Below, in pieces: positions 867-27,697 of a stretch of 34,093 nucleotides of DNA. Position numbers and translations under genes: made by a program. Under the pieces are notes generated by a model. The model worked only from the letters and a program-made list of their open reading frames with translations, was not told where the DNA came from and made no database searches. The DNA is from Chloroflexota bacterium (lineage in GTDB: Bacteria; Chloroflexota; Anaerolineae; Promineifilales; Promineifilaceae). Numbering within the stretch: position 1 is the stretch's first letter; each line of letters starts with the position of its first letter. The stretch lies in contig JAGNBF010000073.1 in the NCBI GenBank assembly GCA_018004935.1, positions 1-34,093 of the forward strand, given 5' to 3'.

Positions 867-984
867 AAATATAGCTTTTAAGAAAAAGATTTTGACTGTA
901 CGGGCAACCCTTGTGGTTGCCCCAGTGCAGGGCAGGCACAAGGCCAGCCCCTACTCAAAATCATTATCTTAAGGTCTATAGCAA
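867..984. repeat. AT-rich hairpin repeat interrupted by a 59-bp element (copy 1)
   Basis: The flanks 867-896 (ending AAGAAAAAGATTTTGAC) and 956-984 (starting CAAAATCATTATCTT) match an uninterrupted copy at 27641-27697 on the same strand. In the uninterrupted copy the two halves face each other as an imperfect inverted repeat, so the 59-bp segment 897-955 sits at the hairpin tip. Nothing in it looks coding. Confidence 0.75.
897..955 (+). repeat. 59-bp palindromic insertion element, copy 1
   Basis: The segment contains GGGCAACC (902-909) and GGTTGCCC (915-922) as perfect arms, then GGCAGGCACAAGGCCA. A closely similar copy lies on the opposite strand at about 21076-21140. Because the flanking sequence occurs elsewhere without it, it behaves as a small non-coding mobile repeat (REP or MITE-like). 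No encoded enzyme is present. Confidence 0.65.
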
Positions 985-5107: not shown

Positions 5108-5275
5108 ATCGTGTCAGGAACCAACAGAAATGGGTTTTTACCTGTAAAGATATACTGTTCGCGGTCAGTTGTTGCGCTTTTATACTATGGCCGGTTGCCT
5201 GACTGCGCTACCAATCTGTGACCATGCTGAGTATAAAGGTATCAATTCTGTGAAATCCTAAAGACTTAGGAATGA

Positions 5276-5348
5276 GAACTAAATAACTTGTTCGCTGGGA
5301 GTGGCACGGTCAGGAGACCAGCCACAGCAAATGTTCAAGTTATTTAAT
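5276..5348 (+). repeat. A-module repeat, copy 1 (terminal inverted repeats)
   Basis: Perfect 11-bp terminal inverted repeats TAAATAACTTG (5280-5290) and CAAGTTATTTA (5336-5346) bound a core containing GTGGCACGGTCAGGAGACC and GCCAC, itself partly self-complementary. Related copies are at 10035-10100, 10212-10277 and, inverted, 22190-22245. It is small and non-coding, MITE-like in form. Confidence 0.75.
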
Positions 5349-5366
5349 CGTTAATCCTTAGTGAAC

Positions 5367-5440
5367 ATCTAAAAATAACTTCCCGATTTAGACCTGACAG
5401 GTTTCCGAAAACCTGTCAGGTCTGTGCGGAACTTATTTTT
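5367..5440 (+). repeat. B-module covarying hairpin, copy 1
   Basis: A perfect 14-bp stem, 5391-5404 (GACCTGACAGGTTT) with 5409-5422, has a 4-nt loop. It is flanked by an outer imperfect stem AAATAACTTCC / GGAACTTATTT. It lies just past the stop of the alpha-oxoamine synthase gene. Other copies are at 10114-10190, 18740-18800 and 22090-22165. Confidence 0.85.
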
Positions 5441-5461
5441 GGACGATTACTTAGTGCTTTT

Positions 5462-10034: not shown

Positions 10035-10100
10035 CTCGAAATTAAGTTGGGTGGCTCGGTCGGGAGACCGGCCACAACAAACTCAAAAGTTATTTGCGAG
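10035..10100 (+). repeat. A-module repeat, copy 2
   Basis: The core GTGGCTCGGTCGGGAGACC followed by GGCCACAACAAACTC and AAGTTATTT matches copy 1 and, on the opposite strand, 22190-22245 very closely. The core GGTCGGGAGACC is a near-perfect palindrome. Confidence 0.7.
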
Positions 10101-10113
10101 CGAACCCTAAGGG

Positions 10114-10190
10114 TTCGTAAAAATATAACTTCCCAGTTTAGACGTGACAGGTTTCCGAAAACCTGTCACGTCTTGATGGAACTTAATCTT
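10114..10190 (+). repeat. B-module covarying hairpin, copy 2
   Basis: A 14-bp perfect stem (10141-10154 with 10159-10172) begins GACGTG where copy 1 has GACCTG, and the partner arm changes from CAGGTC to CACGTC, keeping the pairing. The flanks AATATAACTTCCCAGTTTA and GGAACTTAAT match the copy at 22090-22165. Confidence 0.85.
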
Positions 10191-10211
10191 TTACAGGCCC
10201 TAAGGAATGAG

Positions 10212-10277
10212 AACTAAATAACTTGTTCGCTGGGAGTGGCACGGTCAGGAGACTGGCCACAGCAAAAAGGGAAGTTA
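10212..10277 (+). repeat. A-module repeat, copy 3
   Basis: From AACTAAATAACTTGTTCGC through GTGGCACGGTCAGGAGACT to GAAGTTATTC it is nearly identical to copy 1 at 5276-5348, with a short divergent stretch before the right end. Confidence 0.75.
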
Positions 10278-10399
10278 TTCTTAGACAGTTCCTAAGATAT
10301 GGTGATGAAATTGAGTGAACATTCCTTGTGTAGAATGATTTTGTCAATACACTGTGTGTGATTCAGGAAAGCACGCTACACAGGGGCAGGAAAAAGATT

Positions 10400-18584: not shown

Positions 18585-18739
18585 GGCCGTATCCGTTTGT
18601 ACTCATTGCAGTGTGTCTAGACCCTGATGCGCTTTGTTGGGACTATGAGAGGGTGTGAGTACAGGTAATTGTGGTTGTTATGTCAATCGTTGTCAATCCC
18701 AGACCTGGAGATGGTTATTGATGAGGCTTTGTGGGCGTC

Positions 18740-18800
18740 TAAAAATAACGGTCTGATGTAGACGCGAAAGGTTTGACTAAACCTTTCGCGTCTGGGTTCT
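18740..18800 (+). repeat. B-module covarying hairpin, divergent copy
   Basis: The stem 18761-18774 (GACGCGAAAGGTTT) with 18779-18792 is perfect and keeps the frame GAC-N6-GGTTT of the other copies. Four of the six inner bases differ from copy 1 and are compensated in the partner arm. The AAAAATAAC flank is retained on the left. It lies just past the VWA-FHA gene stop on the minus strand. Confidence 0.75.
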
Positions 18801-21047: not shown

Positions 21048-21075
21048 TGGATTGTTTCCTTTTTGGTTCTTCAAA

Positions 21076-21140
21076 AGAGCCTGTGTTGGCCTTGTGCCTG
21101 CCTCGTGTGGGGCAATCACAAGGGTTGCCCGTACCCCACG
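21076..21140 (-). repeat. 59-bp palindromic element, copy 2
   Basis: Read on the minus strand, GTACGGGCAACCCTTGTG, then ATTGCCCCAC, then GGCAGGCACAAGGCCA match the 897-955 element with few changes. It occupies most of the spacer upstream of the VWA-FHA start codon. Confidence 0.7.
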
Positions 21141-21163
21141 AAATCCCCAAGAACCACATAATT

Positions 21164-22009: not shown

Positions 22010-22089
22010 AGGTTGTTGCTATCTTCTCCATATATTTCACGAACTCTCAGAAGGTTCGCTCGTACAGCTTTACACAAATCCTTGGGGTT

Positions 22090-22165
22090 CGTAAAAATAT
22101 AACTTCCCAGTTTAGACCTGACAGGTTTCCCAAAACCTGTCAGGTCTTGACGGAACTTAATCTCT
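22090..22165 (+). repeat. B-module covarying hairpin, copy 3
   Basis: The stem 22115-22128 (GACCTGACAGGTTT) with 22133-22146 is perfect with a CCCA loop. About 90 bp from GGGTTCGTAAAAATATAAC to TTACAGGCCC match 10109-10205 directly. Confidence 0.85.
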
Positions 22166-22189
22166 TACAGGCCCTTAGGGTTCGCTCAC

Positions 22190-22245
22190 AAATAACTTTT
22201 GAGTTTGCTGTGGCTGGTCTCCTGACCGTACCACTTCACATCCGC
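22190..22245 (-). repeat. A-module repeat, copy 4 (inverted)
   Basis: On the minus strand it reads GTGG then ACGGTCAGGAGACCAGCCAC and AGCAAACTCAAAAGTTATTTG, nearly the same as 10035-10100. Its orientation relative to the neighbouring B module is the reverse of that at 10 kb. Confidence 0.72.
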
Positions 22246-27640: not shown

Positions 27641-27697
27641 AATATAGCCATTAAGAAAAAGATTTTGACCAAATCATTTTCTTAAAATCTATAATAA
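27641..27697 (+). repeat. AT-rich hairpin repeat, uninterrupted copy
   Basis: The left half AAGAAAAAGATTTTG faces CAAATCATTTTCTT as an imperfect inverted repeat. The copy at 867-984 has the same halves separated by a 59-bp element. Confidence 0.75.

Follow-up and report, generated by a model that had tools for sequence, protein, structure and literature searches.

Palindromic MITE-type shells and the REP dimers at their apices are copied together in a Chloroflexota genome

The element at 870–980 and its surroundings

The window, by which we mean the whole stretch of 34,093 nucleotides that was analysed, is part of contig 46 in a 7.98-Mb assembly of 229 contigs (96.6% complete, 3.1% contamination). 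It contains a 111-bp element at 870–980, in which TATAG...CTATA arms enclose a core. An initial annotation had placed an insert at the tip of a hairpin repeat in this region, and that is where it lies, the insert proper being the 57 bp of 898–954. The two halves of the interrupted hairpin, 870–897 and 955–980, are the same repeat as the uninterrupted hairpin that had been noted at 27.6 kb, which is present at 27643–27693. With DNA parameters the composite folds as one long hairpin (z –5.3) and so does the uninterrupted copy (z about –5.0); in each case none of 200 shuffles was as good. A search of the window against Rfam gave no match.

We call the arms of this element shell S1 and its core, a pair of REP sequences set head to head, core a. 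The features are collected in Table 1. A second copy of the insert had been reported on the other strand near 21 kb. The core is indeed there (about 21083–21134, minus strand), and 27 nt of the insert recur at 21108–21134 with 96% complementarity, but they are enclosed by a different and damaged shell, S2.

Table 1. Repeat features of the window. Positions are numbered from its first nucleotide.
Feature	Position	Strand	Description
Left arm, shell S1	870–897	+	MITE terminal inverted repeat starting TATAG; at least 40 arm + core copies in the genome, flank statistics, TA target
Core	898–954	+	Head-to-head REP dimer (REPIN-like), GTAC...CTAC
REP half A	898–922	+	GTACGGGCAACCCTTGTGGTTGCCC; part of core
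Core spacer	923–929	+	CAGTGCA, between halves A and B
REP half B	930–954	+	GGGCAGGCACAAGGCCAGCCCCTAC; part of core
Right arm, shell S1	955–980	+	CTATA end; same arm + core copies, flank statistics
Degenerate shell S2 copy	21065–21155	–	GGTTCTTGGGGATTTC ends; same core type; S2L class, right arm damaged
Uninterrupted S1-type hairpin	27643–27693	+	No core; sole such copy found; fold z –4.95
Shell S1 end motif			TATAG[CT]TTT[TC]AAGAAAAAGATTTTG
End motif of shells with 8-bp duplications			GGGTCTTCGGGATTTC

The window is rich in other repeats. The octamer GCGGCCGC occurs at 56 sites within it (e.g. 45, 273 and 789), and 2920 times in 1.97 Mb (1.5 per kb), where about 46 are expected from base composition. 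Its one-mismatch neighbours number at most 89 each, and in loci of relatives the octamer itself is found at about 0.1 per kb. This abundance recalls that of the cyanobacterial HIP1, which has a different sequence; we found no paper in the literature linking the two. Further dispersed repeats at 5266–5455, 10044–10279, 18727–18794 and 22077–22235 belong to families around GACCTGACAGGTTT...AAACCTGTCAGGTC and AGTGGCACGGTCAGGAGACC hairpins, and these are targets of elements with shells S1 to S3.

Shell and core transpose as one unit

How widespread is the composite? Both of its component repeats are present beyond chance: the arm motif matches the genome at 126 places with up to two mismatches and the reversed control at none, and the exact core hairpin (half A) has 344 genomic copies against two in the control. 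The 113-bp composite itself gives at least 40 full or near-full matches at 87–100% identity (40 of 673 first-look candidates scored). S1 with its core has the character of a MITE, being short and non-coding, with inverted terminal repeats, many copies and unrelated flanks. A census was taken over 1.97 of the 7.98 Mb, about a quarter of a single fragmented assembly and partly picked for these repeats; its proportions are approximate, and its counts are lower bounds as contigs break at repeats (C16 and C99, for example). It holds 171 cores with paired halves A and B, of which 46 are in S1, 61 in S2, 31 in S3 and 2 in S4. About 31 others are damaged, chimeric or nested; no more than three lack a recognised shell. 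The search for the two elements alone and nested thus gave many composites but a single empty shell, and among the 171 paired cores of the 1.97 Mb no clearly free copy of core a in which an insertion of IS200/IS605 type, made by a Y1 transposase and leaving no target duplication, might be seen; the core of the window moves inside its shell.

The flanks of the elements show what is inserted. Exact target duplications of 8 bp border 24 of 51 S2 copies (mean identity 0.76, against 0.36 for shuffled flanks) and 14 of 29 S3 copies (0.81 against 0.34), and none of the other widths between 2 and 12 gives more than four exact duplications. The flanks of S1 reveal a palindromic W-n-TA-n-W target, the duplicated bases being the TA inside TATAG/CTATA. 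Unoccupied paralogous sites agree with this. For S1 nine align ungapped when one TA is kept, compared with three when none is kept, two with T and none with TATA; for S2 17 do so after removal of 8 bp and two without removal, and for S3 the numbers are nine and zero. From the target duplications and the occupied and unoccupied sites it follows that the moving unit is the arms plus the core. Thus shell and core are copied and inserted jointly, with a TA duplication in S1 and an 8-bp duplication in two other shells that carry the same core type.

Core a is central in at least four different shells, with its own variant in each. The spacer is CAGTGCA or a close variant in 22 of 22 copies of the window's S1 subfamily, TCTCGTGGCA-like in a second S1 subfamily, CACACN in S2 and TCGGCG-like in S3. 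These shell-specific variants and spacers indicate a separate founder for the spread of every subfamily, and we conclude that each shell subfamily has its own core variant and its own founder.

The fillings of S1 in the 1.97-Mb sample are core a (53 copies), a second and unrelated REP dimer that we designate core b (10 copies) and, once, nothing at all. That one empty copy is the hairpin at 27.6 kb. It is the single place in the whole genome where the arms are separated by 0–30 bases, and no second uninterrupted copy came from a fuzzy search over 1.97 Mb. Its right arm reads AGAAAATGATTT, against AGATAATGATTTT in the filled family, and its junction is GATTTTG-ACC-AAATC, in which no remnant of the core is seen. 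Since the right arm differs, the copy at 867–984 was not formed from it, and with a remnant-free junction as well there is no clear sign that it was formed from that copy by deletion. It is a lone empty shell with arms of another lineage. The proposal that the window captures the empty and filled site of one insertion is therefore not upheld: there are at least 40 jointly moving composites, and the empty copy is of the other lineage. The 27.6-kb hairpin could alternatively be a filled element that lost its core, perhaps when replication slipped across the hairpin. This is possible, though we lean against it. Of the 65 short S1 elements that have either a recognised filling or no filling, it alone is empty, and chimeric and internally deleted copies reveal recombination at the core, yet an arm unlike that of the core-a subfamily and a junction without core remnant both speak against it.

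S2 or S3 copies are nested within S1 at three loci (L074, L085 and L065), and in three chimeras (L083, L101 and L105) the arms are exchanged at the core. Both classes would be expected if shells and cores were exchanged solely by homologous recombination between nested elements, without any REP dimer itself having been inserted at the apex. We think it improbable that this is the whole explanation, for such exchange swaps single arms, and could not alone place the unrelated core b between both arms of one shell.

Two REP families and their RAYT genes

Core a has the properties of a GTAG-type REP or REPIN, with a GTAG-foot hairpin, head-to-head pairing and high copy number. The feet are GTAG...CTAC in about half of the S3 cores (14 of 30), and in S1 cores one foot is GTAC; this frequent replacement of the outer GTAG in S1 is counted against the explanation that we favour below. 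Exact half A with a GTAG foot is found in at least 114 stretches from many phyla, in a scan that may omit the window's own genome. It lies inside or adjoining genes that match the RAYT model NF047646 in Gammaproteobacteria (L243), Poribacteria (L270), Chitinophaga (L279) and Chloroflexi (L258), with scores of 48–62 bits that are under the 80-bit cut-off. The RAYT-type genes of the first three are interrupted by the REPs themselves, and the dimer within the gammaproteobacterial gene is the same A/B pair as the window core. A relative of the same family (G008) has a RAYT above the cut-off, with the same REP-a heterodimer no more than about 0.4 kb after it. The occurrence of REP-a in and near RAYT genes of other genomes thus identifies core a as a RAYT-linked REP class.

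The interrupting dimers are in frame (L243 483–728, L270 2385–3497 and L279 2701–3249) and sit between MPNHxH and GDVIGAFKS-like motifs (GDMMDAFKS in L279). They encode peptides such as ATTRVAPT and VGAGLVPAQ. A home-made RAYT profile built from relatives gave no matches among the GTDB loci; the matches came from a motif search and NCBIfam.

A RAYT is also resident in the genome of the window. Pfam Y1_Tnp had suggested that there was none, which the NCBIfam model NF047646 overturned. The gene (C98, 19793–20185) scores 86.5 bits, over the cut-off, and its NHYH motif is intact. On each side of it lies a head-to-head dimer of REP-b, GGTTCGTAGTAAC...GTTACTACGAAC; in the coordinates of locus L357 the dimers are at about 1343–1392 and 2012–2061, around an ORF at 1399–1995. 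The RAYTs of relatives (L352 and L353) also have REP-b-like dimers on their flanks. Core b is therefore a REPIN, a head-to-head dimer beside the RAYT of the same genome. In the 1.97 Mb it is present in 10 S1 shells, where it occupies the GATTTTG/CAAAATC apex that in other copies holds core a; it is further found in another palindromic setting and free. Thus core a and core b, which are unrelated, share one apex of S1, and core b is also the dimer beside the resident RAYT. The link to REP elements drawn in the initial annotation is borne out by the RAYT genes elsewhere and by core b at the same apex; its suggestion of a RAYT with matching sites is borne out in part, by the one genuine RAYT with REP-b flanks, while no RAYT of this genome was found flanked by REP-a and so cognate to the insert.

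The Pfam Y1_Tnp match at L124 (646–1812, G000 C65) is not taken for a RAYT: in this protein of about 390 aa a divergent Y1-like domain is joined to an N-terminus that resembles a response regulator. Many genomes of the family have ORFs of comparable length that give this weak Y1 match too.

These results bear on whether the core is independently mobile, having been inserted repeatedly by a RAYT or other Y1 transposase into existing hairpin apices on single-stranded DNA, the window showing one such event. The variety of shells around core a, the two different cores between GATTTTG and CAAAATC, the presence of a RAYT, and REP-b copies that are free or beside their RAYT would all be accommodated. 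We nevertheless regard repeated independent insertion as unlikely, because shell and core are both highly similar from one composite to the next and target duplications surround the whole unit, the spacer is shell-specific, there is essentially one empty shell, and the genome has no RAYT cognate to core a. Such insertion may account for the founding events, but not for the window's copies.

Origin of the composites and relation to known elements

We conclude that the element at 870–980 is very probably a composite non-autonomous transposon, a MITE-type shell with a GTAG-type REP dimer (REPIN) at its apex, the two moving together. We propose that it arose by a founding capture, in which a REP dimer would have entered the apex of a shell on few occasions, either through recombination or through single-strand insertion of RAYT type. 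The composite would then have been multiplied by a DDE-type transposase that recognised the ends of the shell, so that the core-a REP would no longer depend on its own RAYT.

It counts against this account that the 1.97 Mb gave neither an autonomous element ending like S1, S2 or S3 nor a long pair of terminal inverted repeats with a matching transposase. Genome-wide there are two DDE_3/IS630-type loci, whose ends are different or unrecognised; neither has recognised S1 ends of its own. One IS630 element (L126) was considered as the parent of S1 and rejected, as its own ends are TTGAAC and it is itself inserted in a REP-b hairpin loop. At no fewer than two loci (L126, about 868–2064, and L163, about 12560) the tip of a REP-b hairpin holds an IS630-family element with TTGAAC/TTGAGC ends, itself a hairpin-apex insertion. 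S1 shares with IS630/Tc1-type MITEs the TATAG...CTATA palindrome, the TA target, palindromic flanks and the lack of an ORF; it differs in that no matching IS630 element was found and that its interior is a REP dimer, not remnant IS sequence. Shells S2 and S3, with 8-bp AT-rich target duplications and GGxTCTT ends, we take to resemble ISL3-like MITEs. Unlike these they have no ISL3 parent here, the transposase model PF01610 giving no matches in the genome.

The relation to REPINs and REPtrons (Bertels and Rainey 2011, PMC3116915; Nunvar et al. 2010, PMC2817692) is clear from the head-to-head REPs, the outer GTAG feet, the high copy number and the flanking of the resident RAYT by core b. Core a departs from them, having no RAYT of its own in the genome and being seen, in the 1.97 Mb, solely in MITE-type shells or remnants. 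REP dimers within palindromes have been known since 2013: in Anabaena variabilis GTAG-15 REP dimers lie inside TATAGGA...TCCTATA palindromes, and palindromes lacking the REPs were not found (Di Nocera et al. 2013, PMC3733652). Those palindromes are similar in having a GTAG-type REP dimer at the middle and TATAG/CTATA ends; they differ in sequence and phylum, and the present genome has two cores in combination with a number of shells. The study of A. variabilis (PMC3733652) did not deal with target duplications or joint transposition. What is new here is joint transposition, the occupation of one apex by two unrelated REPINs, and the spread of an orphan REP without its RAYT.

It is tempting, if speculative, to suppose that REP dimers target the hairpin apices of DDE-type MITEs, trading dependence on a RAYT for dependence on the MITE transposase, and that such REPIN–MITE hybrids explain RAYT-less REP families generally. 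REPs are thought to depend on RAYTs, and there are REP families with no matching RAYT in the same genome. In the genome studied here one REP family has spread inside target-duplicating transposons, and the same shell also holds a second, which is linked to the resident RAYT. This provides a concrete and testable route by which a REP can persist without a transposase of its own, and it may explain why REP dimers are at times found solely in palindromes.
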